Source: Pontivivens ytuae (GTDB taxonomy: Bacteria; Pseudomonadota; Alphaproteobacteria; Rhodobacterales; Rhodobacteraceae). Taken from it: DNA of 64,000 nucleotides. The first letter of the stretch is position 1, and each line of letters starts with the position of its first letter. Location: positions 1,086,001 through 1,150,000 of the forward strand of contig NZ_CP064942.1 of NCBI RefSeq assembly GCF_015679265.1. The letters are read 5' to 3'. The translations under genes were made by a program, and so were the position numbers. The notes under the pieces were generated by a model. That model had not been told where the DNA came from. It ran no database searches and saw only the letters and a program-made list of their open reading frames with translations. This document shows positions 10,982 to 61,174 of the stretch, piece by piece.

Positions 10982-11256
10982 GGCTGTCCAGACATAGGAA
11001 ACGAGGCGATGAGGGCGGCGCCCGAGCCTGGGTGGGCGCTCACGACATCAGAGCCACTTGATACGTCCCAAGCCTCAAAACCGGTGCTCCCGGCAGACAC
11101 GTCACAATGCGCCCTCCCGGGGGGAGGCTCGGGCGCCGCCCGGCGGTGCCGCCGGGCGATACCGGTATGGAGCGCAGCACTCAAAACCGGTCCGGGCTCA
11201 CCTGGATCAGGACGCATCGCCACCCTCACAACGGAATGTTGTCGTGCTTCTTCCAC
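10978..11256. repeat. Segmental duplication, copy 1 (pccB 3' end to next start codon)
   Basis: This segment aligns without gaps (constant offset 23312) with 34290-34568. It includes the last few codons of pccB, the intergenic repeat element at 11013-11156 and the sequence up to the next gene's start codon. The region holds no other gene. Confidence 0.8.
11013..11156 (+). repeat. Interspersed TIR element, subfamily B, copy 1
   Basis: The element begins GGGCGGCGCCCGAGCCT (11013-11029) and ends with its exact reverse complement (11125-11141), preceded by a six-G bulge. A terminal hairpin CCCGGCGG-TG-CCGCCGGG follows at 11139-11156. Core length is 129 bp. It lies between pccB and the next gene on the same strand. 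Confidence 0.85.
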
Positions 11257-16278: not shown

Positions 16279-16663
16279 AGCCCTACGGTAGGCCATCTGA
16301 ACCGAGGATCGCGTCCGATCCCGAGGGCGAGGTTGGGCGCCCCGGCGGGACTATTGATCTGCTGATCTGCGATTGCGCCGAGAATCACTAATCTATGCGA
16401 ATGCCAAAATGAGATCGGGGCTAGGAGGGCAGCGCCCGACCCTGGGTGGGCGCTTCGGGACCCGTGAACAGCAGCCGAATTTCGCAAGCCTCCGAGCCTC
16501 AGTCAGAATTGACCCGTCGCAAAAGCGCCCTCCCGTGGGGAGGGTCGGGCGCTGCCCGGCGGTGCCGCCGGGCGGAAAGCTCGGGCGCCGGCCTCCCGTT
16601 GCGCCGGTGATTGCAAACCGCCCTGCCCCGTGCCTACCTGTGCCGAAACCGAAGGAGGCCCCC
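16279..16663. other. Intergenic region with TIR element
   Basis: A 385-bp gap. Its middle is the repeat element at 16427-16572. The first part (16279-16426) shows only a weak GAGGATCG/CGATCCCGAGG palindrome. The last part leads into the coxG RBS (GAAGGAGG, 16651-16658). No coding frame with a credible start was found. Confidence 0.5.
16427..16572 (+). repeat. Interspersed TIR element, subfamily C
   Basis: The element begins GGGCAGCGCCCGACCCT (16427-16443) and ends with the exact reverse complement (16541-16557), preceded by the bulge GTGGGG. The terminal hairpin CCCGGCGG-TG-CCGCCGGG spans 16555-16572. Core length is 131 bp. Its end sequences differ from subfamilies A and B but remain self-complementary. 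Confidence 0.82.
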
Positions 16664-19062: not shown

Positions 19063-19815
19063 TCAGGCGAAGGGATCCTCCGGGTAGCCGACCTCCATCA
19101 GGTAGAGCCCGTCCGGCGGGGCGACGGGGCCGCAGCGGGCGCGGTCGCGGGCGTCCAGGGCGGCCTCGACATCGTTGGGGGTCCAGGCGCCCGCGCCGAC
19201 CCGCTCCAGCGTTCCGGCGAAGCTGCGGACCTGGTTGTGGAGGAACGAGCGGGCGCGGACGTAGAGGTGGACCTCGGCGCCCTCACGCCGGACGTCGAGC
19301 GCATCGAGCGTCTTCACCGGGCTCAGCGCCTGGCACATGGTCGAGCGGAAGGTGGTGAAGTCGTGCCGGCCGAGAAGCCGGTTCGCGGCCTCCTGCATCG
19401 CATCCACGTCCATCTCCTGCCGGACCTGCCAGACGAGACCCGCATCGAGGGCCGCGGGCGCGCGACGCGGCAGGATGCGGTAGAGATAGCGGCGGGAGAT
19501 GGCCGAGAAGCGGGCGTGCCAGTCGGGGGCGACCTGCGCGGCTGCGGTGACGGCCACGGGCAGCGGGCGCATGTGGTGGTTGATCGCCTGCGACAGGCGG
19601 AAGGGATCCCAATCGCGCTCCGTGTCGAGATGCGCGACCTGCCCGCGGGCGTGGACGCCCGCGTCGGTCCGGCCGGCGCCGGTGACGGTGGTGTTCTCAC
19701 CGAGCTTCGCTGTCGCTTCCTCCAGCGCCTGCTGAACGGAAGGGTGCGCGCGCTGGCGCTGCCACCCGGCAAAGGGCGCGCCGTGATACTCGATGCGGAG
19801 GGCGTAACGGGGCAT
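19063..19815 (-). CDS. truA: tRNA pseudouridine(38-40) synthase TruA
   Basis: A 250-aa enzyme that isomerises uridines 38-40 in the anticodon arm. The catalytic aspartate is Asp51 in [15 protein letters not shown], and the N-terminal [15 protein letters not shown] and C-terminal [17 protein letters not shown] blocks are typical. Length is normal. It is convergent with the frameshifted DinB gene, 7 nt apart. Confidence 0.96.
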
Positions 19816-19883
19816 GACGCCTTGGCCTAGCGGGCGCGGGTGAGGGAGGCAAGTGGGGGTACTGGCGGCATTCGAAGCGCTGA

Positions 19884-20089
19884 GGGCCGCGCCCGACCTG
19901 GAGGGCGCTTGCGGGACGGTGTTGATGGGGCCGCGCCCTCAAGCATCGATGTCGTGCCTTCTGCGAATGACAGCGACAACGCGTCCTCCGGGGGGAGGGT
20001 GATCCGGCTTCTCGGAAACTATCCGGTGGACAGTTTCGCCGGATCACGGGCGGAGCCCCGAGCGGGCGCGGCCCGGCCTATCAGCCGGG
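19884..20089 (+). repeat. Interspersed TIR element, subfamily A long form, copy 1
   Basis: It begins GGGCCGCGCCCGACCT (19884-19899) and ends CGGGCGCGGCCC (20063-20074), with the terminal hairpin CCCGGC-CTATCA-GCCGGG to 20089. It is 191 bp long between the end repeats because of a 63-bp module containing the hairpin at 20001-20045 (GATCCGGC ... GCCGGATC). Confidence 0.85.
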
Positions 20090-20164
20090 CGAGACAACCA
20101 TTCTGCGAGGCGCCGCCCCAGACTTGATCCGCAGGCTTTTGCTATCGAAGCGCATGATCTTCCA

Positions 20165-20385
20165 AAAGGTCCCGGCGCTTCGGCCGGGACGGTGGCGAGG
20201 GTTGTCATGGTCGGGCTTGGCGCGGCGGTCTTCAGGAACGGGAGATCCTCGGGTCGAGCCCGAGGATGACCCCGCGTTGGGAGACCGCAGAAGGCGGTAC
20301 CGTGGCCGTGGCCCGGACGGCATGCGTTCTAGAGCGCCGCATCGACCCTTGAAGCGCCGCCCCGGACTTGATCCGGGGCCTCCCG
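20165..20385. repeat. Cluster of short intergenic palindromes
   Basis: It contains GTCCCGGCGCTTCGGCCGGGAC (20177 region), ATCCTCGGGTCGAGCCCGAGGAT (20237 region) and CCCCGGACTTGATCCGGGG (20358 region). The same three palindrome types recur in several other gaps of this window. Confidence 0.7.
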
Positions 20386-20492
20386 CCAACGGCCCCAACG
20401 CCACGGCTCCACTGAGACCACCCCGAACGCCGTGCTCGCATTCCGGGCCCGCCGCGCCCATATTGGCCTTCGCACCGATCGCGAGGCCGCCC

Positions 20493-21914
20493 TTGATCAT
20501 CAACGACATCGCCGACGGGCTCCTGCGGGGGGTCGAGGATGCGCAGGCCGGGCTGCGGGAGGCTCTGTTCGACCCGGTGATCCGGCTCGGGGTCACGGGG
20601 CTCAGCCGATCGGGCAAGACGGTCTTCATCACCTCGCTGGTCGCCAACCTGATGGAGCGGGGGCGGATGCCGCAACTCCGCGCCGCCGCGGACGAGCGGA
20701 TCACGACCGCCTATCTCCAGCCCCAGCCCGACGACGCGGTGCCGCGCTTTGCCTTCGAGGATCACCTCACCGCCCTCACCGGACCCGAGCCACATTGGCC
20801 GGAGAGCACGCGGGCGATCTCCCAGCTTCGGCTCTCGCTCAAGGTGCGGCGGGGCAACTGGGTGACGGGGCTCGGCGGGCCGCGGACCGTGCATCTCGAC
20901 ATCGTGGATTATCCCGGCGAGTGGCTGCTGGACCTGCCGTTGATGGAGAAGAGCTTTCGCCAGTGGTCCGACGAGGTGTTGGCCGCCGCGCGCGATCCGG
21001 TGCGGGCGGAGCATGCCGCGCCCTGGCTCGCCGCACTGGAGGAGGCCGATCCGGCCCGCAAGCTCGACGAGCCGGAGGCGCAGCGGCTCGCCGCCGCCTT
21101 CACCGACTATCTCGGCCGGATGCGCGCGGCGGGGCTGTCGGGCTTTGCCCCCGGGCGCTTCCTGATGCCCGGCGATCTGGCGGGGAGCCCGGCGCTTACC
21201 TTCGCTCCGCTGCCCGCCGGGGCTACGCCCTCGGGCTCGCTGGCGAAGGAGTTCGCGCGGCGGTTCGAGGCCTACAAGCGGCTGGTCGTGAAACCCTTCT
21301 TCCGCGACCACTTCGCCCGGATCGACCGGCAGGTGGTGCTTGTCGACGCGCTCGGCGCGATCCATGCGGGGCCGCCGGCTGTGGAGGATCTGCGGGTGGC
21401 GATGACCAACATCCTGGAGGCGTTCCGCCCCGGCCCGAACTCCTGGCTCTCCGCGATCCTCGGCAAGCGGGTGGAGCGGATCCTGTTCGCCGCGACCAAG
21501 GCGGACCACCTGCACCATAGCCAGCACGCCGCTCTGACCGCGATCATGGAGGCTCTCCTGGCGGACGCGAAGCGCCGCGCGGATTTCAAGGGCGCGCAGA
21601 CGCAGGCGCTGGCGATTGCCGCGATCAGGGCGACGGTGGAGCAGGAGCTGGCGCATCAGGGGGCCAAGCTGCCGGTCGTGCGCGGCCGGCTGGAGGACAG
21701 CGGGAAGGAGGCCGCACTCCATCCCGGCGACCTGCCGAGCGATCCCTCCGCACTGCTGGTGCCGGCGCGCAAAGGCGCTGCGGAATGGCTCGACGAGGGC
21801 TACTCCGTGATGCGCTTCGCGCCGCCGGTGCTGAGCCGTGCGCCCGGAGAGGGGCCGCCGCATATCCGGCTGGACCGCGCGGCGGAGTTCCTGATCGGGG
21901 ATCGGTTGCTGTGA
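20493..21914 (+). CDS. ycjX: YcjX-family P-loop protein
   Basis: A 473-aa member of the YcjX/DUF463 family with P-loop GLSRSGKTVFITSLVANLM near the N-terminus and the conserved blocks DIVDYPGEWLLDLPLM and ILFAATKADHLHHSQH. The frame stays open upstream, but the family sequence begins at IINDIADGL, so I chose TTG 20493, which has GAGG six bases before it. YcjX is normally followed directly by YcjF; here a repeat element separates them. The E. coli pair is stress-induced; its exact role is not settled. Confidence 0.88.
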   Translation: MIINDIADGLLRGVEDAQAGLREALFDPVIRLGVTGLSRSGKTVFITSLVANLMERGRMPQLRAAADERITTAYLQPQPDDAVPRFAFEDHLTALTGPEPHWPESTRAISQLRLSLKVRRGNWVTGLGGPRTVHLDIVDYPGEWLLDLPLMEKSFRQWSDEVLAAARDPVRAEHAAPWLAALEEADPARKLDEPEAQRLAAAFTDYLGRMRAAGLSGFAPGRFLMPGDLAGSPALTFAPLPAGATPSGSLAKEFARRFEAYKRLVVKPFFRDHFARIDRQVVLVDALGAIHAGPPAVEDLRVAMTNILEAFRPGPNSWLSAILGKRVERILFAATKADHLHHSQHAALTAIMEALLADAKRRADFKGAQTQALAIAAIRATVEQELAHQGAKLPVVRGRLEDSGKEAALHPGDLPSDPSALLVPARKGAAEWLDEGYSVMRFAPPVLSRAPGEGPPHIRLDRAAEFLIGDRLL

Positions 21915-22374
21915 CGGGGGTGCTGGAGAGCGTGACGTTTGGTGGTTCGGCCGCAGTTGCGTTGAGCAGGTGGAAGCGCGCTGAGGGCGGCAAGCCATCT
22001 GGGCACCTACGTCGCTCACCTGTCCTGCCCGGCTGCCAGGCCGGGCCGCGCCCGCCCGGGGCTCCGCCCGCGATCCGGCGAAACTGTCCACCGGACAGTT
22101 TCCGGGAAGCCGGATCACCCTCGCCCAGGAGGGCGCGATGGCGAAGTCATTCGCAGAACACGCAAGGTCGACGCTTGAGAGCGCAAACCCATCAATACCG
22201 TCCCGCAAGCGCCCTCCAGGTCGGGCGCGGCCCTCAGCGCATCTCCGCTCTGACAGGGCAAGGCGCTGCAACTAGCCACGTTCATGCGGCGCAAGGAGAT
22301 CAGATCGATCAGACGCACACCCAGCGTCGGGCGACGCCCTCCGCCCGTCGGTCCCCCCGATTGCAGGTGCCCTC
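21915..22374. other. Intergenic region splitting ycjX and ycjF
   Basis: A 460-bp gap between two genes that are usually adjacent. The middle is the TIR element at 22028-22233. The rest shows no credible coding frame. Confidence 0.6.
22028..22233 (-). repeat. Interspersed TIR element, subfamily A long form, copy 2
   Basis: In reverse orientation: terminal hairpin CCCGGC-TGCCAG-GCCGGG at 22028-22045, left end GGGCCGCGCCCG (22043-22054), right end AGGTCGGGCGCGGCCC (22218-22233). The 63-bp module includes a hairpin at 22072-22116 whose inner stem GAAACTGTCC/GGACAGTTTC is perfect with a 3-nt loop. Confidence 0.87.
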
Positions 22375-23379
22375 ATGACCACCGATCCGCCCCGCCGCGG
22401 TCCCGTCCTGATCGAGGATGTGGAGACCCTGCCCGACGCCCCCGCCGTTACCGAGGCGCCGCCCGTTCCCGACGGCCCGCCACCCGCGATGCTGCGCGCG
22501 ACGCGCATGGCCGCGCGGCGGAGCTCTTGGCGGGGCAGGCTCTTCTGGGGCGCGCTCACCTCGCTCCTCGCGCTCCTGATCGGCAACGCGGCGTGGGAGG
22601 CGGTGCTGGCGCTGACCGAGCGCAACCTTTGGCTCGGCCGCGCGGCAATGGCCCTCGCTGCCATCGTCGTCATCATCGCGCTTGCAAGCGTCCTCAAGGA
22701 ACTCGCCGCCCTCGCCCGCCTCTCCAATGTCGAGACGATCAAGACGAAGGCCGCAGCGGCACTCGCCAGCGGCTCGGTAGACGAAGCGAAGGGCGTCCTC
22801 GACAAGCTCCATGGCCTCTATGCGAGCCGCGACGACCTCGCCGATGCGGCGGCCAGCGTGAAGCGTGCGCGCGATGAGACGGTGGACGCCGATGCCCTCC
22901 TGGAGCTCGCCGAGCGGCACTACTTCGCGGCCCTCGACCGGCAGGCGGCGGCCGAGGTCCAGTCGGCGGCGCGCACCGTCGCGGGCGTCACGGCGCTGGT
23001 GCCGATCGCGCTCGCAGACGTGCTCGCGGCCCTCAGTGCGAACATGCGCATGATCCGCCGGATCGCGGAGATCTATGACGGGCGCGCGGGCGTGGTCGGC
23101 ACCTGGCGACTGTTCCGCGCGGTGGCCGCGCACATGATCGCGACCGGGGCTGTGGCCGTGGGCGACGATCTGATCGGGGCGGTGGCGGGTGGCGGCGTGC
23201 TCGCCAAGGTCTCCCGCCGGTTCGGGGAGGGCGTGGTGAACGGTGCGCTCACGGCCCGCGTCGGCGTCGCGGCGATGGAGGTCTGCCGACCCCTCCCCTT
23301 CGCGGCGCTCAAGCGACCGTCCGTGACCTCGATCCTGCAGCGCGCCCTGTCCGGCATGTTCGCGAAAGGCGACGCCTGA
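22375..23379 (+). CDS. ycjF: YcjF-family (TIGR01620) inner membrane protein
   Basis: A 334-aa protein with a proline-rich acidic N-terminal tail, two adjacent transmembrane helices (LFWGALTSLLALLIGNAAW; AAMALAAIVVIIALASVL) and a C-terminal DUF697-like helical domain (MRMIRRIAEIYDGRAGVV, VAVGDDLIGAVAGGG). This is the usual partner of YcjX. Start ATG 22375. Confidence 0.88.
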   Translation: MTTDPPRRGPVLIEDVETLPDAPAVTEAPPVPDGPPPAMLRATRMAARRSSWRGRLFWGALTSLLALLIGNAAWEAVLALTERNLWLGRAAMALAAIVVIIALASVLKELAALARLSNVETIKTKAAAALASGSVDEAKGVLDKLHGLYASRDDLADAAASVKRARDETVDADALLELAERHYFAALDRQAAAEVQSAARTVAGVTALVPIALADVLAALSANMRMIRRIAEIYDGRAGVVGTWRLFRAVAAHMIATGAVAVGDDLIGAVAGGGVLAKVSRRFGEGVVNGALTARVGVAAMEVCRPLPFAALKRPSVTSILQRALSGMFAKGDA

Positions 23380-23436
23380 CCCTCTTGTGCACGCGCCGCG
23401 CGAACGGCATCTTCGGGACAAGCTACGGAGGATGCC

Positions 23437-23874
23437 ATGGCCGCGCTCACCATCGACTTCGCCACGTCCGAGGCCGACCTGGAGGTCTGCCGCACGCTGC
23501 GCCGGACCGTCTTCATCGAGGAGCAGGGCGTGAGCGAGAGCGACGAGGTCGACGGGCTCGACGACGCCTGCCTCCACGTGCTGGCCCGCGAGGGCGGCGC
23601 GCCGATCGGGGCCGCACGGGTCCACATCCAGGGTGGCACCGCGAAGATCGGCCGGGTCTGCGTGCTGCCCCCGGGCCGCGGGCGCGGCATCGGCGGCGAG
23701 ATCATCGGCTTCATCCTCACCCACCTGCGCGCGGACCCGCAGATCACCCAAGCCAAGCTCGGCTCCCAGATCGCGGCGATGTCCCTCTACTCCCGCGCCG
23801 GCTTCCGCCCGGTGGGTGACCGCTACATGGAGGCGGGGCTGGAGCACCAGGACATGGAGCATACGCTGGAGTAG
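23437..23874 (+). CDS. GNAT family N-acetyltransferase
   Basis: A 145-aa acetyltransferase. The acetyl-CoA pyrophosphate loop is VCVLPPGRGRGIGGEII, and the N-terminal LRRTVFIEEQGVSESDEVDG block is typical of the ElaA/YjcF-like GNAT group. RBS GGAGG precedes ATG 23437. The substrate is not predictable. It follows ycjF by 57 nt. Confidence 0.9.
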   Translation: MAALTIDFATSEADLEVCRTLRRTVFIEEQGVSESDEVDGLDDACLHVLAREGGAPIGAARVHIQGGTAKIGRVCVLPPGRGRGIGGEIIGFILTHLRADPQITQAKLGSQIAAMSLYSRAGFRPVGDRYMEAGLEHQDMEHTLE

Positions 23875-23914
23875 AGCGCAGCGCAGTCTGTGGTTTCTGG
23901 CTGAGTAGGGACGC

Positions 23915-23990
23915 CACCATCCCGGCCAAAGCGCCGGGACCGCTTCCTTTCCGAGAGACCCCGGATCAAGTCCGGGGTGGTACTTCTCCG
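23915..23990. repeat. Short palindrome pair
   Basis: ATCCCGGCCAAAGCGCCGGGAC followed after about 20 nt by ACCCCGGATCAAGTCCGGGGT. The same pair, in the same order, occurs near 26030, 26130 and 52280. Confidence 0.7.
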
Positions 23991-24002
23991 AAATCAAGTC
24001 CT

Positions 24003-24181
24003 GGCCGGGGCTCCGCCCGTGATCCGGCGAAACTGTCCACAAGACAGTTTCCGGGAAGCCGGATCACCCTCACCCGGAGGGCGCGTTGGCGATGCCGGAA
24101 GCAAAATGCGCGGCATGAAAGCTTTAGGGCGCGGACTTATCAACCCCCTTCCGCAAGCGCACTCCAGGTCGGGCGCGGCCC
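24003..24181 (-). repeat. Interspersed TIR element, subfamily A long form, copy 3, truncated
   Basis: The right end AGGTCGGGCGCGGCCC (24166-24181) is complete. The left end and terminal hairpin are missing: the copy starts within the 63-bp module (GGCCGGGGCTCCGCCCGT). The module hairpin lies at 24021-24065, with GAAACTGTC/GACAGTTTC and a 5-nt loop. Confidence 0.82.
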
Positions 24182-24189
24182 TCAGCTCT

Positions 24190-24615
24190 TTAGTCTCGCA
24201 CGTAGTACACGTCGAACTCCGTCCGACGCTCCTCGACGAACCCATGGCGCTGGTAGAACCGGTTCGCGGCACTGCCCTTCAACGCCCCGAGCCGGATCGG
24301 GCGCCCTCCTGCTTCCGACACGATCCGCTTCATCGCGGTGGCTCCCAGGCCCTGCCCCGCCACCTCATGCGCGATGTAGAGGTGGGAGAGGAAGAGGTCC
24401 GCGCCGCGATCCTCCAGCACGTAGAAGCCGACGATCCGGCCCTCGGCCTCGACCACCGTGCAGGCCGCGGGCTCGAACCCGTCCAGCAGACGTGCGCGGG
24501 CCCGGTCCGGGTCGAAGCGGCCGAGGGCGCGCAAGCTGGGCTCCATCGCGGCGGCGCGAAGGTCCGCCAGAGCCTCCGCGTCCTCGGCCCGCGCCGTCCG
24601 GAACGCGGGCCTCAC
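24190..24615 (-). CDS. GNAT family N-acetyltransferase
   Basis: A 141-aa acetyltransferase: RTARAEDAEALADLRAAAM, then VGFYVLEDRGADLFLSHLYIAHEVAGQGLGATAM (acetyl-CoA loop), and NRFYQRHGFVEERRTEFDV. I chose GTG 24615, whose GTGA overlaps the TGA of the amidase gene by four bases, which fits translational coupling. A longer frame from 24702 is only the amidase read in another frame. Confidence 0.86.
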   Translation of the reverse strand: MRPAFRTARAEDAEALADLRAAAMEPSLRALGRFDPDRARARLLDGFEPAACTVVEAEGRIVGFYVLEDRGADLFLSHLYIAHEVAGQGLGATAMKRIVSEAGGRPIRLGALKGSAANRFYQRHGFVEERRTEFDVYYVRD

Positions 24616-25946
24616 CGCACGCCCAGCGCCGTCTCGACCGCGGCACCGATGCGCAGCAGTGCGGCCTCGCCCATCGGGCAGCCCATGACGGAGAGGCCGC
24701 ACATCGGGGTGCCCGTCGGCAGCGTCAGCACCGGCAGGCCCATCAGGTTGCCGATGCGCGTGTTGCGCAGGGCCATCAGGTTCTCGGAGCGGTAGAAGGC
24801 GCCATCCTCGGCCACCCGAGCAGCGTTCGGCGCCAGGATCGGAGCGGTGGGCACGAGCACCGCGTCATAGGCCGCGGTGGCGGCGCGGTAGGCCTTGCGC
24901 AGCTCCTCCAACCGGGCGCGGGCGCGCAGGTAGTCGGCCGCACTCACCTTCGCCCCGGCGAGGAAACGGTCGCGGACCTCGGCGAACATCACGTCGGGGT
25001 TGGCCTCGATCAGCTCGCCTTGCGTGGCGTAGGCCTCGGGCGCAAAGAGGAGCGCGCCGGCCTCCATGCCCTCTGCCACCTCGGGTACGGCGATCCGGTC
25101 GATCCGGGCCCCTGCGTTGGAGAGGCGGGTGACAGCGTCTTCGAAGGCGGCGCCGGGCGCCTCGCGCAGATCGTCGAGGGCCACGGTCTCCAGCACGGCG
25201 AGGCGGAGGTTGGAGGCGTCGCCGCCCTTCAGGTCGGGTGCGGCACCACCACCAAAGGCGTCGAAGATGAGGGCCGCGTCCTCCACCGTCCGGCAGAGCG
25301 GCCCGATCGTGTCGAAATAGGCGCAGAGCGGCACGACCCCATCGAGCGGCAGCGCACCGGAGGTCGTCTTCAGCCCCACGAGGTCGTTCCAGGCGGAGGG
25401 GACGCGGACCGACCCGCCCGTGTCCGACCCGATCCCCGCCGCCGCGAGCCCGAAGGCGACCGAGGTGGCCGCGCCCGAGCTGGAGCCCCCCGGCAGCAGC
25501 TCCGGATCGTTGATGTTGGGCGGCGTGGCGGTGACGGGATTGTAGCCGAGGCCCGCGAAGGCGAGCTCCGTCATGTGGGTCTTGCCGAGGCAGACGAGTC
25601 CGGCGCGGGTGGCGCGGGCGAGCACTTCGGCGTCTTCCGTGGGGACGCGGCCCTTGAGGAGGGCTGAGCCCGCCTCGGTCGCCGTGCCCGCGATGTCGAA
25701 AAGGTCCTTCCAAGAGATCGGCACACCGTCGAGCGGGCCGCGGCGGACGCCGTTCTTCGCTCTCTGGGCCGCGGCCTGCGCCTCGGCCAGGGCGCGCTCG
25801 GGGGTGGTGCGGGCGTAGATCCGCGCGCCGTGCTCCGAGGCCGCGATGGCGTCGAGGTAGCTCTCGGTCAGCGCGACGGGGTCGAGGCGGCCTGCGGCGA
25901 TCTCCCGCCCCAGATCGGCGGCAGGGCGGGTGAGATGGTCGGTCAT
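24612..25946 (-). CDS. Amidase (amidase signature family)
   Basis: A 444-aa amidase-signature hydrolase with the Ser-cisSer-Lys triad: Lys80 (PISWKDLFD), Ser155 (LPGGSSSGA) and Ser179 (GIGSDTGGSVRVP). Length and the C-terminal block GLPVLTLPTGTP are typical of GatA-like amidases, but no gatB/gatC is nearby, so it is probably a metabolic amidase. Start ATG 25946. It is followed by a GNAT gene with a 4-nt overlap. Confidence 0.92.
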   Translation of the reverse strand: MTDHLTRPAADLGREIAAGRLDPVALTESYLDAIAASEHGARIYARTTPERALAEAQAAAQRAKNGVRRGPLDGVPISWKDLFDIAGTATEAGSALLKGRVPTEDAEVLARATRAGLVCLGKTHMTELAFAGLGYNPVTATPPNINDPELLPGGSSSGAATSVAFGLAAAGIGSDTGGSVRVPSAWNDLVGLKTTSGALPLDGVVPLCAYFDTIGPLCRTVEDAALIFDAFGGGAAPDLKGGDASNLRLAVLETVALDDLREAPGAAFEDAVTRLSNAGARIDRIAVPEVAEGMEAGALLFAPEAYATQGELIEANPDVMFAEVRDRFLAGAKVSAADYLRARARLEELRKAYRAATAAYDAVLVPTAPILAPNAARVAEDGAFYRSENLMALRNTRIGNLMGLPVLTLPTGTPMCGLSVMGCPMGEAALLRIGAAVETALGVR

Positions 25947-26024
25947 GGGCGCTCCCTCTCGCGGTCGGCGCACGGTAGCGGGCGGGTGGGGGCGGTGCAA
26001 TCGGAGTGGTTGGGTGTTAGGGGC

Positions 26025-26205
26025 GGGGCCGTCCCGACCGCAGCGGCGGGACCTTTAGCAACCGTTTTCTGCTGCGGCGAAAGACCCCGGATCAAGTCCG
26101 GGGTGGTTGGACGACTTGGTACCGTCCCGGCCAATGCGCCGGGACCGTTGCGCTCCGGTGCGCGCCAAAACCGAAGACCCCGGATCAGGTCCGGGGTGGT
26201 ACCGC
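26025..26205. repeat. Two successive short palindrome pairs
   Basis: Each pair is GTCCC(G)-type palindrome (for example GTCCCGGCCAATGCGCCGGGAC) followed by ACCCCGGATCAAGTCCGGGGT or its GG variant after 30-40 nt. The two pairs are in direct orientation, one after the other. Confidence 0.72.
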
Positions 26206-26222
26206 ATAGAATGGGCGCCCCG

Positions 26223-26429
26223 CCCGGCGGCCACGCCGGGCCGCGCCCGTCCGGGGCTCCGCCCGCGATCCGGTGAAACTGTTCACTGAACAGTTTCCGG
26301 GAAGCCGGATCATCCTCCCCCCGGAGGGCGCGTTGGCGATGTAGTTCGCAGAAGGCGCGACACGGATACTTGAGAGCATGCGCTCAGAAAAAAGCGTTTC
26401 AAGCGCGCCTTCCAGGTCGGCCGCAGCCC
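26223..26429 (-). repeat. Interspersed TIR element, subfamily A long form, copy 4
   Basis: Terminal hairpin CCCGGC-GGCCAC-GCCGGG at 26223-26240, left end GGGCCGCGCCCG (26238-26249), degenerate right end AGGTCGGCCGCAGCCC (26414-26429). The module hairpin at 26267-26311 has GAAACTGTTC/GAACAGTTTC: compared with copy 2 one stem pair changed from C-G to T-A, so pairing is kept. Confidence 0.85.
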
Positions 26430-26601
26430 TCCGCACAACAGCCTATAGGTCGCTAAGTCTCGTCAGGACGCCTGCAGCGTCCGTGTATCGAGCCGATGCG
26501 AGGTCCAGCGCGGAACCACCTCCATAAACCAACCCCAAAATCCACCCCAGCGACTCCGCGCCGCGATGGACATGACGCGCCGCAGCCCCATAGATACGGG
26601 C

Positions 26602-27825
26602 ATGACGCCGGACACCGATATCGCCATCGTCGGGGGCGGGCTGAACGGCCCGGCTCTCGCCCTCGCGCTCGCCTCCGCGGGCTTTCGCGTCACGCTGCTC
26701 GACGCGCTGCCGCCGGAGACCTTCGCCGATCCGGAATTCGACGGGCGCGCCTACGCGATCGCGCTCGGCTCGCAGCGCCTTCTGCAGGGGCTCGGCGTGT
26801 GGGAGACGGTCCGCGACCGCTCGCAGCCCATCAATGATATCGTGGTGAGCGACGGGCGCGTGGGCTTCGGCGGGTCGCCCCTCCACGTCCATTTCGACCA
26901 CCGCGAGATCGAGGAGGGGCCCTTCGGCGCGCTGATCGAGGATCGCTGGCTGCGCAGCGCCCTTGCCGACGCCGTGACGCGCGCGGGGATCGAGACGCGT
27001 GCGCCTGTCCGCGTCACCGGCCAGACCATCCACCCGACCCATGCGGAGCTCGCGCTGGAGGGGGGCGAGACCCTGTCCTGCCGGCTCATCATCGGGTGCG
27101 ACGGCCGCGGCTCAGGCACGGCCGAGCGTGCGGGGATCAAGCGCATGGCGTGGGGCTACGGGCAGACCAGCCTCGTGTGCGCCGTCGAGCACGAACAGCC
27201 GCACGAGGGCGTCGCCCACCAGATGTTCTTTCCCGAAGGCCCGCTCGCGATCCTGCCGCTGCCGGGCAACCGCTCCTCCATCGTGTGGACGGAGGAGACG
27301 GAGCGGGCGGAGGCGGTGCAGGCCGCCGATGACGAGAGCTACCTCGCCGCGCTGCGCCCGCGCTTCGGCGATTTCCTCGGGGAGATCCGGCTGGCGGGCA
27401 AGCGCTACACCTACCCGCTGGGGCTGAGCCTCGCGCGGGCCTGGACGGCGGAGCGGGTGGCGCTCGCGGGCGATGCGGCGCACGGGATCCATCCGCTGGC
27501 GGGTCAGGGGCTGAACCTCGGGCTGCGCGATGTCGCAGCACTCGCCGAAGTGCTGGCGGATGCGAAGCGGCGTGGCGAGGACTGGTCGCGGCCCAGCGTG
27601 CTGGAGCGCTACGCCCGCTGGCGTCGCTTCGACACGGGCGGTCTGGCGCTGGCGACGGACGGGCTCAACCGGCTGTTCTCCAACGATAACCCGGTGCTGC
27701 GGGGCCTGCGCGACCTCGGTCTCGGCGCGGTGAACGCGATCCCGGCGGCGCGGCGCGGCTTCATGCGGGAGGCCGCGGGCCTGACCGGCGACCTGCCGCG
27801 CCTGATGCGGGGCCGGCCGCTGTGA
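26602..27825 (+). CDS. UbiH/UbiF/COQ6-family FAD-dependent hydroxylase
   Basis: A 407-aa flavoprotein monooxygenase. The dinucleotide-binding motif is DIAIVGGGLNGPALALALA near the N-terminus; the second FAD motif is VALAGDAAHGIHPLAGQGLNLGLRD near residue 290. This set is typical of the ubiquinone-biosynthesis ring hydroxylases. Start is uncertain: in-frame ATGs lie at 26566, 26572 and 26602, none with a clear RBS; I chose 26602 because family members begin just before the glycine motif. Which ring position it hydroxylates cannot be told. Confidence 0.88.
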   Translation: MTPDTDIAIVGGGLNGPALALALASAGFRVTLLDALPPETFADPEFDGRAYAIALGSQRLLQGLGVWETVRDRSQPINDIVVSDGRVGFGGSPLHVHFDHREIEEGPFGALIEDRWLRSALADAVTRAGIETRAPVRVTGQTIHPTHAELALEGGETLSCRLIIGCDGRGSGTAERAGIKRMAWGYGQTSLVCAVEHEQPHEGVAHQMFFPEGPLAILPLPGNRSSIVWTEETERAEAVQAADDESYLAALRPRFGDFLGEIRLAGKRYTYPLGLSLARAWTAERVALAGDAAHGIHPLAGQGLNLGLRDVAALAEVLADAKRRGEDWSRPSVLERYARWRRFDTGGLALATDGLNRLFSNDNPVLRGLRDLGLGAVNAIPAARRGFMREAAGLTGDLPRLMRGRPL

Positions 27826-34290: not shown

Positions 34291-34568
34291 TATGGCTGCC
34301 CCGACATCGAAGACGAAGCGAACAGGGCGGCGCCCGAGCCTGGGTGGGCGCTCATGACATCAGAGCTGCCTGTCAGGTCCCAAGCCTCACGATCCGCGCT
34401 CCTGATAGAGACGTCGCAATGCGCCCTCCCGGGGGGAGGCTCGGGCGCCGCCCGGCGGTGCCGCCGGGCGAAACCAGCATTGAGCGCAGCGTTCGAAAGC
34501 GGTCTGGAATCACGTGGATCAGGACGCATCGGTGCTCTCGAAATGAGATGGTGTCGTGCTTCTTCAGT
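34290..34568. repeat. Segmental duplication, copy 2
   Basis: A gap-free copy of 10978-11256. Its distal end carries a degenerate remnant of the last pccB codons (GTCGTGCTTCTT and neighbours), and its proximal end stops at the start codon of the AttH-like gene. The direction of copying is therefore from the pccB locus to here. Confidence 0.8.
34325..34468 (+). repeat. Interspersed TIR element, subfamily B, copy 2
   Basis: Ends GGGCGGCGCCCGAGCCT (34325-34341) and its reverse complement (34437-34453), terminal hairpin to 34468, six-G bulge before the right end; core 129 bp as in copy 1. Confidence 0.85.
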
Positions 34569-52365: not shown

Positions 52366-52381
52366 CAGAACCACTCTTCCG

Positions 52382-52524
52382 CCCGGCTGACAGGCCGGGC
52401 CGCGCCCGACCTCCCCCCGGAGGGCGCGTTGGCGATGTCATTCGCAGTATGAGCGCCGTTGATGCTTGAGGGCGCGGACGCTGAACAATTGTCACTCATG
52501 CGCCCTCCAGGTCGGGCGCGGCCC
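52382..52524 (-). repeat. Interspersed TIR element, subfamily A short form, copy 5
   Basis: Terminal hairpin CCCGGC-TGACAG-GCCGGG (52382-52399); left end GGGCCGCGCCCGACCT (52397-52412); right end its exact reverse complement (52509-52524). Length between outer ends is 128 bp. Inside the ends, six C then GGAGGGCGC pairs with GCGCCCTCC. It lacks the 63-bp module. Confidence 0.87.
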
Positions 52525-52537
52525 TCCACTCTTTGGT

Positions 52538-53920
52538 TCAGGCGGCCTGCTTTTCGGGCTGCACGATCTCCACGCCCTCCGCCCGCGTGACCCAGAGCGT
52601 CACGATGAGCGCCAGCACCGCGCCGCTGATCGCCGCGGCAAGCAGGGCCCACCAGACGCCCGCCGCCCCGAGGTCCAGCGGCCCGGTGAAGAGCCAGGCG
52701 AAGAGGGCGAGGCCCAGCCCGAGCCGCCACAGCCCGATCAGGAGGGGCCAGCGGGGTTGCTGCAGCCCCTGCAGCAGGTTCTGCGTCACGAAGATCACGA
52801 CGAAGAAGGGCAGCGCGCCAGACAGGATCCGCAGGTAGGCGACCGCGTGGTCGACCACCGCTTGTTCGTCGTTGAAGAGAGCCACGGCGGGTCGGGCCAG
52901 CGTCCAGATCACCACCGCCCCCAGCGCCACGAAACCGAGCGCCACGGCGCCGGTCACGCGCACCGCGCGGCGCACGCGCTCCGGCTGGTCCGCGCCCATG
53001 TTCTGCGCCGTGATCGGCAACAGCGCAGTCGTCAGCCCGATCACCGGCAGCAGCAGGAGCTGTTGCAGTCGGAAGCCGACGCCATAGGCCGCCACTGCAT
53101 CGGCGCCGTGGTTGCGCAGGAAGAACTGACAGATCACGCCGCCCAGCACCGTGACGTAGATCGTGCCTGCGGCCGGGACCACTTCGGCCATCAGGTCCTT
53201 CTGCTGTCCGACCTGCGGCAGAACGTCGGACCAGTCGAAGCCGCGCATGACCTCCGAGCGCAGGGCGTTCCAGCCGATGAAGGCGAGCACGCCGGTCTGG
53301 GAGACGACGGTCGCCACCGCGATCCCGTTCAGCCCGAAGCCGTCCCAGATCCCCGGGATGCCCCAGATGAAGAGCGGGTTGAGCCCGATATTCGCGACCG
53401 TGGCGACGAGCTGCGCCCGCTCCTGCGTGACCGTGTCGCCCTGCGCGGTCAGCGTCCCTGTCATCGCGTAGGTCACGATGAAGCCGGGGGCGGCGAGCAG
53501 CATGATCCGCATGTAGGTGACCGCGTCGTCCACGTAGGAGCTGCCACCGGCTACCGCGCGGGCGAGCGCGGGCAGGCCCCAATAGCCCGCCACCATCGCC
53601 ACCGCGCAGGCCACGATGGAGGCGCCGATCGCCTGCGCGGCGGCGCAGGACGCGCCCTTTCCATCCCCCTCCCCGATCGCGTTGCCGACGAAGGCGGAGA
53701 CCCCGATGCGGAAACCGACGCCCGTCGCGATGATCAGGAAGTAGAATTGGGAGCCGATGCCGAGGCCGGCCTGAGCCTCGGTCGAGATCTTGCCCGCGTA
53801 GAACGTGTCGATGACGTTGTAGAGCGTCACGAACAGGAGCGAGAGCGCGGCCGGGACGGCGACCGCGCGGATATGGCCGAGGATCGCGCCCTCGGTGAGG
53901 TCGCGCTCCTTCCCGCTCAC
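52538..53920 (-). CDS. MATE family efflux transporter
   Basis: A 460-aa polytopic protein of the MATE family: HIRAVAVPAALSLLFVTLYNVIDTFYAGKI, GVGFRIGVSAFVGNAIGEGD, LNPLFIWGIPGIWDGFGLNG and the second-half GLTTALLPITAQNMGADQPERVRRA (in sections). It is closer to the DinF/NorM-like branch than the protein at 37922. Its start overlaps the M3 peptidase stop by 4 nt, so the two are translationally coupled. Confidence 0.92.
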   Translation of the reverse strand: MSGKERDLTEGAILGHIRAVAVPAALSLLFVTLYNVIDTFYAGKISTEAQAGLGIGSQFYFLIIATGVGFRIGVSAFVGNAIGEGDGKGASCAAAQAIGASIVACAVAMVAGYWGLPALARAVAGGSSYVDDAVTYMRIMLLAAPGFIVTYAMTGTLTAQGDTVTQERAQLVATVANIGLNPLFIWGIPGIWDGFGLNGIAVATVVSQTGVLAFIGWNALRSEVMRGFDWSDVLPQVGQQKDLMAEVVPAAGTIYVTVLGGVICQFFLRNHGADAVAAYGVGFRLQQLLLLPVIGLTTALLPITAQNMGADQPERVRRAVRVTGAVALGFVALGAVVIWTLARPAVALFNDEQAVVDHAVAYLRILSGALPFFVVIFVTQNLLQGLQQPRWPLLIGLWRLGLGLALFAWLFTGPLDLGAAGVWWALLAAAISGAVLALIVTLWVTRAEGVEIVQPEKQAA

Positions 53921-55893
53921 GCCGCGAGGCCGCGTCCGCGCAACAGCGCCTCAGGCCCCGGCATCCGGCCGCGGAAATCGGTGTAGAGATCCTCGGGCGG
54001 GCGGGTGCCGCCGGCGGAGTAGATGAACTCCTCCAGCTTGTCGGCCATGCCCGCGTCGAAGACGTCGCCGGTTTCCTCGAACGCCTCGAAGGCGTCGGCG
54101 TCCATGACCTCGGACCACATGTAGCTGTAGTAGCCTGCGGAGTAGCCGTCGCCGGAGAAGATATGCGCGAAGTGCGGCGTGGCATGCCGCATCGGGATCG
54201 CGTCGGGCATGCCGATGCGCGCCAGCGTCTCGGCCTGGGCCTGCATCGGATCGGCGGGCGGCGCGCCGGTGTGGAAGTCGAGATCGACCAGCGCCGACGC
54301 CACGTATTCCACCGTCTGGAACCCCTGGCCGAAGGTCTCGGCGGCGAGCAGCTTGTCGAGCAGGTCCTCCGGGATCGGCTCCCCGGTCTCGTAGTGCCTG
54401 GCGTAGCCGCGCAGGATGTCGGGCACGCTCAGCCAGTGCTCGTAGAGCTGGGAGGGCAGCTCCACGAAATCGCGCGCGACCGAGGTGCCGGAAACGCGGG
54501 CATAGGTCGCCTCGCTCAGGAGGTGGTGGAGCGCGTGGCCGAACTCGTGGAACAGCGTGCGTGCGTCGTCGTAGGTTAGCAGCGCCGGGTCGCCCTTCGC
54601 GAAGTTGCAGACATTGGTGACGATGGGTCGGGTCGCCCCCTCCTGCGACTGCATGCTGCCGCACCATGCGCCGGAGCGCTTGCCGGGCCGGGCGAAGTAG
54701 TCGCCGACGAGGACGCCCATGTGACGGTCGCCCTGCCGGATCTGCCAGATGCGGGCGTCGGGGTGGGGTCCGGGTACGTCGAGTTCGTGGGCGGTGAGGT
54801 CGAACAGGCGGTTCGCGACCTCGAAGCTCGCTTCGATCATGCGGTCGAGGGTGAAGTAGGGCTTCAGCTCGGCCGCATCGAAATCATGCTCGGCGGCGCG
54901 CAACTTCTCCTCGTAGAAGCGCCAGTCCCAGCCTTCGAGCGGGTGGTTCTGGCCGTCCGCGGCGATCAGCGCGCGCAGGCGGTCGGCATCTGCTTCGGCC
55001 TTCGCCTTCGCGGGCTCCCAGACCTGCATCAGAAGGTCGCGGACGGCGCCGGGCTCCTTCGCCATCTCGGGCGCGAGCTTGAAGGAGGCGAAATCGTCGA
55101 AGCCGAGGAGCTGCGCGCGCTCATGGCGCAGCGCGAGGATCTCGGCCGCGATCTGGCGGTTGTCGGTCTCGCCGCCATTGGCACCGCGGGCGGTCCAGGC
55201 CGTCCACGCGGTCTCGCGCAGGTCGCGGCGGGTCGAGGTCTCGAGGAACGGCACGACGACGGAGCGGCTGAGGGTGAGCTTGTAGCCGTCCTTCGTCTCC
55301 ATCGCGCGTTTCAGGTCGTCGGGCAGCCCGGCGAGGTCGTCCTCGGCCAGCATCAGCTCCCAGTCGCGCTCGTCGGCGAGCAGGTTCTGGGTGAAGGCGG
55401 TGCCAAGCTCGGCGAGCCGCTGCATGATCTCGGCCAGCCGCTGGCGCCCATCGGCGTCGAGGGCGGCACCCGACCGGACGAAGGAGCGGTGGTAGAGCTC
55501 CAGCACCCGCGCCTCCTCCCCGGTCAGCTCGTTGTCCTGGTAGAGTGCGTCGACCCGCGCCCAGAGCTGCTGGTTCTGGTAGACCTCGGAGGAGAAGGCG
55601 GCGAGCTTCGGCGACATCTCGCGTTGCAGCGCCTCGGTTTCGGGCGTCGACTGGGTGGCGGCCTCGTGGAAGAAGAGGGAGGCGGCCTTGTCGAGCGCCT
55701 CGCCCGAGCGTTCCAGGGCGGCGATGGTGTTCTCGAAGGTCGGCACCGTCTCCTGCTCCGCGATCTCGGTGGTGCGGGCGCGCGCCTCGGCCAGGCCCTC
55801 CTCCAGCGCGGGGCCGTAATGCTCGAAACGAACGGCGGCGAAGTCGGGCAGACCGTGCGGTCCGGTCCAGTCGGAGAGGATGGGATTGGTCAT
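53917..55893 (-). CDS. M3 family metallopeptidase (oligopeptidase A / dipeptidyl carboxypeptidase)
   Basis: A 658-aa zinc peptidase. The zinc-binding site is LFHEFGHALHHLLS at about residue 450, with the distal Glu in the following helix; FEVANRLFDLTAHEL, GVLVGDYFARPGKRSGAWCG and YSAGYYSYMWSEVMDADAF are typical of the Dcp/PrlC group. It degrades short peptides in the cytoplasm; no signal peptide is seen. I chose ATG 55893 (MTNPILSDWTGPHG); the frame is open to 56010 but without family character. Confidence 0.93.
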   Translation of the reverse strand: MTNPILSDWTGPHGLPDFAAVRFEHYGPALEEGLAEARARTTEIAEQETVPTFENTIAALERSGEALDKAASLFFHEAATQSTPETEALQREMSPKLAAFSSEVYQNQQLWARVDALYQDNELTGEEARVLELYHRSFVRSGAALDADGRQRLAEIMQRLAELGTAFTQNLLADERDWELMLAEDDLAGLPDDLKRAMETKDGYKLTLSRSVVVPFLETSTRRDLRETAWTAWTARGANGGETDNRQIAAEILALRHERAQLLGFDDFASFKLAPEMAKEPGAVRDLLMQVWEPAKAKAEADADRLRALIAADGQNHPLEGWDWRFYEEKLRAAEHDFDAAELKPYFTLDRMIEASFEVANRLFDLTAHELDVPGPHPDARIWQIRQGDRHMGVLVGDYFARPGKRSGAWCGSMQSQEGATRPIVTNVCNFAKGDPALLTYDDARTLFHEFGHALHHLLSEATYARVSGTSVARDFVELPSQLYEHWLSVPDILRGYARHYETGEPIPEDLLDKLLAAETFGQGFQTVEYVASALVDLDFHTGAPPADPMQAQAETLARIGMPDAIPMRHATPHFAHIFSGDGYSAGYYSYMWSEVMDADAFEAFEETGDVFDAGMADKLEEFIYSAGGTRPPEDLYTDFRGRMPGPEALLRGRGLAA

Positions 55894-60980: not shown

Positions 60981-61174
60981 GCTGATCTGCGGAGAGATGA
61001 GGGCCGCGCCCGACCTGGAGGGCGCTGGCGGGACGGGATTGAGATGTCCGCGCCTTCAAGCATCGATGTCGCGTCTCCCGCGTATGGCATCGCCAACGCG
61101 TCCTCCGGGGGGAGGTCGGGCGCGGCCCGGCGATGCCGCCGGGCGGAACAGAGCTTCAAAGGAAACCCAAGGAA
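60981..61174. other. Intergenic region with TIR element
   Basis: The gap is nearly filled by the repeat element at 61001-61143. The last 30 bp carry the RBS of the next gene. Confidence 0.6.
61001..61143 (+). repeat. Interspersed TIR element, subfamily A short form, copy 6
   Basis: Starts GGGCCGCGCCCGACCT (61001-61016), ends with its exact reverse complement (61113-61128), six-G bulge inside, terminal hairpin CCCGGC-GATGCC-GCCGGG to 61143. Exactly 128 bp between outer ends, as in copy 5. Confidence 0.88.

Follow-up and report, generated by a model that had tools for sequence, protein, structure and literature searches.

The ERIC (RU-1) sequences of enterobacteria, as portrayed in excerpts of two reports (PMC2267715, PMC2759123), are intergenic repeats of about 127 bp predicted to form a single long stem-loop, some copies of which were reported as open frames inside genes. 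Excerpts of other papers (PMC3116915, PMC2817692, PMC3733652) present REP sequences and REPINs with RAYT as palindromic halves in inverted orientation with a spacer between them, located between genes in many copies. Bacterial MITEs are characterised in an excerpt of PMC5896051 as small, non-coding, multi-copy elements with inverted repeats. The intrastrand triplex motif TM-ECO, according to part of the text of PMC4666352, combines C-rich and G-rich blocks, with one C block preceding two G blocks, and occurs in many genomes.

The repeats analysed here had been noted as a family without a known name, and neither Rfam nor the open-access literature supplied one. No Rfam family matches in the window; around one compact copy the best Rfam hit was SorX, at 18.6 bits versus a cut-off of 46.6. 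No description of the family was found in the open-access literature, including excerpts of PMC4666352, PMC12306157, PMC3733652, PMC2864571, PMC2267715, PMC4809877 and PMC2759123, and four sequence strings of the element had no match in the open-access papers searched. The interpretation that we regard as rather probable is that these are small, non-autonomous, structure-constrained repeats of Rhodobacterales, ERIC/REP-like in kind, which are spread by a putative enzyme and persist as 3' or intercistronic hairpins.

Anatomy of the element

The window, i.e., the whole stretch of 64,000 nucleotides of Pontivivens ytuae that was analysed (positions 1086001-1150000 of a single contig of 4,199,362 bp), has a G+C content of 69%. 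All nine copies of the repeat reported in it by the initial annotation are present, and the core pattern of the element matches four times in the window versus no match in 100 shuffles. The copies, and the parts of the one at 61001, are as follows.

11013..11157, + strand: copy 1, subfamily B, long form
16427..16573, + strand: copy 2, subfamily B, long form
19884..20090, + strand: copy 3, subfamily A, with a module in the 3' arm
19999..20058, + strand: hairpin module of copy 3
22027..22233, - strand: copy 4, subfamily A, module at 22059-22118
24008..24181, - strand: copy 5, subfamily A, module at 24008-24067, without 3' arm and P2
26222..26422, - strand: copy 6, subfamily A, module at 26254-26313
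34325..34469, + strand: copy 7, subfamily B, long form
52381..52524, - strand: copy 8, subfamily A, long form
61001..61144, + strand: copy 9, subfamily A, long form, with long hairpin P1 and 3' hairpin P2 (arm complementarity, anatomy, fold z -2.90)
61001..61016, + strand: 5' outer arm of P1 in the 61001 copy (arm complementarity, anatomy)
61098..61106, + strand: 3' inner arm GCGTCCTCC of P1 in the 61001 copy (anatomy)
61107..61112, + strand: 6-nt GGGGGG bulge of the 61001 copy (anatomy)
61113..61128, + strand: 3' outer arm of P1 in the 61001 copy (arm complementarity, anatomy)
61126..61144, + strand: P2 hairpin CCCGGC-N6-GCCGGGC of the 61001 copy, its first bases common to the 3' arm (anatomy)

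The element is composed of a long bulged hairpin (P1) and a short 3' hairpin (P2), which begins within the 3' arm of P1 and shares three to five bases with the P1 foot. The arms of the 61001 copy are 16 bp long, 100% complementary and 96 nt apart, and the inner pair of 9-10 bp, the 6-nt bulge and the CCCGGC hairpin that had been described are all found in it, the inner pair being 9 bp with one G-T (GGAGGGCGC vs. GCGTCCTCC). Paired ends of 16-17 bp, attributed earlier to all nine copies, are complete in those at 11013, 16427, 34325, 52382 and 61001 but not in those at 19884, 22028, 26223 and 24003. These four carry an extra module, so that complete inverted ends are not a feature of every copy: the 60-bp module interrupts the 3' arm in 19884, 22028 and 26223, leaving a 3' arm of 12 bases, and in 24003 the module is present and the 3' arm and the terminal hairpin are absent.

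In majority letters, the arms of subfamily A read GGGCCGCGCCCGACCT..GGAGGGCGC / GCGCCCTCC-GGGGGG-AGGTCGGGCGCGGCCC, and those of subfamily B read GGGC[AG]GCGCCCGA[CG]CCT..GGGTGGGCGC / GCGCCCTCCC-N6-AGG[GC]TCGGGCGC[TC]GCCC. The P1 loop has about 70 nt in what we call the long form and a few nt in the compact form, and the 70-nt loop is homologous between copies of a lineage-specific burst. A motif search divided 132 pattern matches away from locus ends into 70 long and 37 compact ones, with no 5' arm detected in 25; under looser arm criteria, a second search classed 82 sequences as long and 43 as compact (n = 125). A P2 of at least 5 bp is present in 122 of these 125 sequences, compared with 71 in shuffled tails. 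Joint changes of the arm foot, the 3' arm and the distal P2 strand are seen in some other genera, as in GAGGC / GCCTC / GAGGC of locus L158.

Two readings of P2 were considered and rejected. The first was that P2 is a pre-existing genomic hairpin that attracts insertion. The window contains 17 CCCGGC..GCCGGG hairpin sites, eight of them in copies of the element; P2 looks integral to the element because the other nine, which end in GGGAC, GGGAT or GGGGC, belong to other repeats. The second was that the element is an intrinsic terminator: T runs are almost absent behind the 3' hairpin, with TTTT found within 8 nt in 2 of 123 sequences and a T fraction of 0.21.

Several copies show further structural variation. 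A hairpin module distinct from P1 and P2 (GTGATC..GATCAC, or GCCGTCTTGCAAA..TTTGAGGC), with stems that vary between copies but remain paired, occurs at window positions 19999-20058, 22059-22118, 24008-24067 and 26254-26313 and in loci L071, L340, L342 and L353; its place is the 3' arm of the element or, in one case (L353), the vicinity of a 5' arm. The Leisingera xdhC copy L385 lacks, relative to L384 and L380, exactly the 6-nt bulge, with frame and stem intact. Half-elements were seen in three unrelated copies (L390, L400, L351), in which one P1 strand was lost, apparently between short direct repeats AGCGCCC or CGGGYGCT. A truncated copy in L329 is bordered, from about position 1524, by 21 identical C/G bases in a row, which may represent a slippage site.

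Copy number and distribution

Merging three blastn searches with the window copies and the matches of model R1 gave 80 clusters in the P. ytuae genome, of which 40 belong to subfamily A, 38 to subfamily B and compact relatives, and 2 are stray halves. The genome holds at least 79 copies or fragments (78 clusters and the 26223 copy), a lower bound, since each of the three blastn searches scored 40 of its first-look candidates, which numbered 147, 78 and 99. The density of one copy per about 7 kb estimated from the window does not apply to the genome, where one copy falls on about 53 kb in 4.2 Mb; the window density reflects a local cluster. The densest 64 kb of the genome lies here, the stretch from 1,090,000 having 9 of 78 clusters, and random placement gave at least nine clusters per 64 kb in 0.15% of 2000 trials.

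The exact core pattern occurs in at least 120 stretches of GTDB contigs, nearly all titled Rhodobacterales or unnamed Alphaproteobacteria; among the matches listed there are single ones in an Opitutaceae MAG, a Neomegalonema MAG and a Nocardioides record. The compact copies L159 and L124, in records titled Nocardioides marinus and Opitutaceae MAG, possibly reflect contamination or misbinning. Model R1 detected the family in 13 of 41 genomes including that of P. ytuae, all of one family, with no match in 16 genomes from other families of the class. Model R2 matched in 23 of 41 family genomes (30 matches in P. ytuae, between 1 and 13 in the other 22, none in 18). Subfamily A was matched in 32 of 120 family genomes including P. 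ytuae, with seven candidates scored per genome; in the 31 of 119 others it is mainly the 3' half that matches, although in two genomes the match extends over 115-141 bases with 72-73% identity. Copies are also carried on plasmids (36 records of Phaeobacter, 27 of Leisingera, 2 of Tritonibacter, 2 of Paroceanicella and 1 of Ruegeria), and a search of phages with one compact query gave no match at E 1e-3.

Covariation of the arms and folding

The ends of the element had been proposed to change together. This is seen mostly across genera, and the covariation found by searching the P. ytuae genome and its relatives extends beyond the nine window copies, but within P. ytuae two-sided arm change is limited to positions 5 and 14. 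Of 1213 arm cells in its 28 A and 19 B copies, 1142 form Watson-Crick pairs; the rest comprise 22 G-U, 11 A-C and 38 of other kinds, 18 of which are the T-T of subfamily B.

Three alignments of the wider family were compared with shuffles. Cells with two-sided changes number 17 vs. 3.8 in shuffles in alignment A3 (42 long forms, 12 outer pairs) and 17 vs. 6.4 in alignment A2 (36 compact forms, in which the 3' core was fixed by the search pattern except in two P. ytuae copies). In alignment A4 (39 sequences, 27 from cimA regions), 92.4% of cells are paired vs. 85.7% in shuffles and 42-51% in slid controls, there are 47 cells with two-sided changes vs. 13.8 (sd 2.8), and the covariation score is 0.212 vs. 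0.095 in shuffles and at most 0.058 in slid controls. The number of A4 pairs with any two-sided change is a weaker indicator (8 vs. 5.8, reached by 26 of 500 shuffles). In the outer five pairs, 531 of 625 cells are paired, compared with a permuted mean of 461 and a maximum of 488 over 2000 permutations. The pairing of the element is kept while its sequence changes.

RNAalifold, applied to the compact set A2, chose a different, locally folded hairpin of the 3' half, with 0 of 17 pairs covarying; that structure was used for building model R1 and left out of the pair counts. The halves of P1 pair with each other, the 3' half also folds alone, and self-folding of the 5' half was read from sequence. 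For the two compact sequences tested, the fold lies below that of every one of 200 shuffles on both strands, with the better z on the opposite strand in each case, and 3 of 200 shuffles were as good as the 61001 copy (z -2.90).

Folding of both strands favours the view that the structure is selected as DNA, for instance as a cruciform protein-binding site or a supercoil-absorbing site, and so does the preference for convergent gene pairs described below, as positive supercoils meet between convergent genes. The wobble pairs, however, are asymmetric: with one inner column excluded, A4 contains 30 G-U vs. 10 A-C cells (p 0.002), which is not expected of a symmetric duplex site, and we consider selection at the DNA level highly improbable. 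By orientation to cimA, the G-U to A-C counts are 8/1 in antisense copies, 11/6 in sense copies and 11/3 at other loci. The asymmetry thus tracks the element's own strand in any orientation to cimA, which fits inheritance through copying, or a mobile intermediate, better than a role in host transcripts. A hairpin of single-stranded DNA also tolerates G-T better, and single-stranded DNA would show the same excess of G-U over A-C.

Genomic location

Genes were called with a codon-model caller written for this analysis rather than a published tool; its start sites are approximate. None of the 80 cluster midpoints in P. ytuae and none of 122 midpoints in other species lies in a called gene. The P. 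ytuae clusters occupy convergent (35 of 80), tandem (41 of 80) and divergent (4 of 80) spacers, compared with 3 convergent, 13 tandem and 7 divergent among the 23 window spacers of at least 100 nt. Tandem copies have no orientation preference (18 sense vs. 23 antisense). In other species, convergent spacers hold 39 of the 84 long copies and 8 of the 38 compact ones, against a background of 85 of 413; the convergent bias therefore belongs to the long forms.

The compact copies have a placement of their own. In other species, 24 of 38 follow a co-directed gene, with the 5' end at a median of 22 nt past the stop codon, and 20 of 38 face a stop codon on the 3' side, at a median of 21 nt. Compact copies were found between rfbB and rfbD (where the copy runs over the start of a short gene annotated as hypothetical), between phnI and phnJ, and between genes of a TAXI binding protein and a TRAP permease. 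All these positions favour the explanation that the element is a host-selected cis-acting RNA, namely a stem-loop in 3' UTRs or between cistrons that serves mRNA stability or processing and was spread by operon transfer and gene conversion, not by mobility of its own. Against this explanation stand the absence of orientation preference in tandem pairs, the homology of the 70-nt loop in the lineage-specific burst, the variation in copy number from none to 30 between genera, and an exception to the intergenic rule, a compact copy inside the Leisingera xdhC gene, in frame. Among the 17 Leisingera rows listed, eight cover this copy and nine are without it; the annotated xdhC is 1008 bp long with the copy and 894 bp without, and the XdhC_C domain is shifted by 38 residues.

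The cysS–cimA junction

Because the core-pattern loci included six genomes with the element in the cysS–cimA spacer (three per orientation), cimA was surveyed more widely across the family. The query matched in 182 of 198 family genomes (one per genus), and 110 cimA upstream regions, 30 from returned loci and 80 fetched separately, were read, the most similar first. A cysS match was obtained by tblastn in 81 of the 110 regions, and in 20 of the 33 that are positive with model R1. This model, built without the cimA loci, matches 33 of the 110 regions within 236 nt of cimA; 20 of its matches are sense and 13 antisense, which gives no orientation preference (p 0.30), and 5 are long by match length. 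Model R2, built partly from cimA loci, matches 42 of the 110. In 30 longer cimA loci (111 kb), every match of either model lies at the cysS–cimA junction, and P. ytuae itself has two antisense copies upstream of cimA.

For comparison, R1 matches 2 of 30 lpd loci, at distances of 0.45 and about 1 kb on the upstream side of lpd, so the odhB–lpd spacer was rejected as a second hot spot. The difference between 33 of 110 regions at cimA and 1 of 30 within 0.6 kb upstream of lpd is significant (Fisher p 0.0015).

Occupation of 33 of 110 cimA regions agrees with a host-selected cis-acting RNA, but the presence of both orientations at this one junction does not, and together with the objections above it leads us to regard that explanation as unlikely. 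The recurrence at cimA could result from re-insertion, inversion of the whole element or selective retention. We also entertain, doubtfully, a stronger version of the mobile-repeat interpretation, in which the elements would be a class of single-strand-folded mobile elements not described before, with a three-strand switch and order-wide spread, and would have been recruited more than once, in one orientation or the other, to serve at cysS–cimA as a control hairpin between the two genes. In such a switch, the 5' foot, the 3' arm and P2 would compete for the same bases. With copies lying both ways round at one operon joint in many genera, nature offers an experiment on target choice versus selection.

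Insertion sites and the search for a mobiliser

Stretches around the syntenic region of three congeners (224 kb in total) contain no element detectable by R2 at E 0.1 or by blastn of the nine copies at E 1e-3. At the sites 19884, 22028, 24003, 26223 and 61001, a matching spacer without the element is present in all three congeners. The 52382 site borders an inversion, and its element-free spacer was read in one congener; for sites 11013, 16427 and 34325 there is no alignment longer than 300 bases in these stretches. The flanks in the congeners are too diverged for defining an exact empty site. Full-length copies amplify in single lineages, and the element spreads in evolutionary terms.

The region is rearranged relative to the three congeners. 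Window positions 52604-55744 are inverted, with repeat arrays at both borders in P. ytuae, and the 19-27.8 kb block (19066-27818) is reversed. The 27.8-40.8 kb part has no alignment longer than 300 bases in the fetched stretches, and in all three congeners the 19.07 kb end adjoins 40.8-41.0 kb, with gaps of about 40-360 bases. Other palindromic repeats occur in the same spacers as the element: CCCCGGAC-N-TGATCCGGGG (seven in the window), GTCCCGGC..GCCGGGAC (six) and CCTCGGGTC..GCCCGAGG (two), at places including window positions 20360, 34670, 56010, 23977, 26103, 26196 and 52355.

Target-site duplication, sought in the flanks, was not detected: of 56 rows, 10 dropped out because an end was not located or because they duplicated others, and among the remaining 46 copies flanks match over at least 4 nt in 5, compared with 3.1 on average in shuffles. 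In 45 of the 46, an A immediately precedes the 5' arm. An outer inverted repeat past the element (CGAAGCG / GCTTCG in the flank consensus) had a summed paired length of 107 vs. a null mean of 98.9 and is not claimed, because these motifs do not pair within individual copies. Among the half-matches inspected there was no autonomous partner in the form of a larger relative whose arms enclose a gene. A search for the Y1 transposase (PF01797) gave no match in the one P. ytuae contig analysed, which need not include every plasmid of the genome, while the control search was positive in 5 of 14 genomes.

The initial annotation had suggested a MITE-like or a structured element. What holds of this is an intergenic repeat family with a kept structure; MITE-like mobility is backed in part, by the lineage-specific full-length A copies and the element-free congener stretches, but no target-site duplication was detected, nor an autonomous partner among the half-matches inspected. 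A classical MITE, with terminal inverted repeats bound by the DDE transposase of an IS located elsewhere, would share the inverted arms, small size, intergenic location and many copies of the element. We nevertheless judge it very unlikely: besides the lack of a detected target-site duplication and of a gene-bearing relative among the inspected half-matches, the arms vary between lineages with pairing kept, and P2 comes after the 3' arm, which is thus not terminal, in all eight window copies that retain a 3' end.

Three Leisingera sites were rejected as clean empty sites. At the plasmid sites xdhC and TRAP, the strains differ in more than the element; in the spacer after a thiamine-pyrophosphate gene, three aligned element-free strains have a terminator-like hairpin and six have the element or its remnants. 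An exact junction is obtained at none of the three. Leisingera plasmid sites with the element in some strains only make movement of the repeat and control of operons testable in cultured bacteria.

Proposed mechanism and comparison with known systems

To return to spread by a putative enzyme, such a trans-acting protein would recognise the folded single strand and copy or move the element. Once transcribed, the element would form a strong 3'-end or intercistronic hairpin, as do REP sequences, which also act in the control of malE-malF; a hairpin role at 3' ends would allow the element to persist behind genes. Both the trans-acting enzyme and the cellular effect of the element are what we infer from these patterns. 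With these results, the few hairpin repeats described in bacteria are joined by a family that extends across an order.

Like TM-ECO, the element has repeated C-rich and G-rich blocks; their order differs, the G block of the element preceding its C block and closing a stem, and for this reason an intrastrand triplex of that pattern was rejected. With bacterial MITEs the element has in common small size, non-coding sequence, many copies and inverted repeats; it differs from them by the lack of a detected target-site duplication and by arm letters that vary between lineages with pairing kept. REPs and REPINs resemble it in the intergenic location and the multiple copies, and possibly in having inverted palindromic halves with a spacer. 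The spacer of REPINs is near 70 nt. Unlike in REPIN/RAYT systems, a Y1 transposase is absent from the contig that carries the element. To our knowledge, ERIC sequences share neither the 3' hairpin nor the optional long loop, and they occur in bacteria other than Rhodobacterales. Compared by description only, ERIC (RU-1) and the element described here are alike as intergenic long-hairpin repeats, and the element displays the ERIC-like combination of a long hairpin, intergenic location, multiple copies and lineage-specific occurrence.
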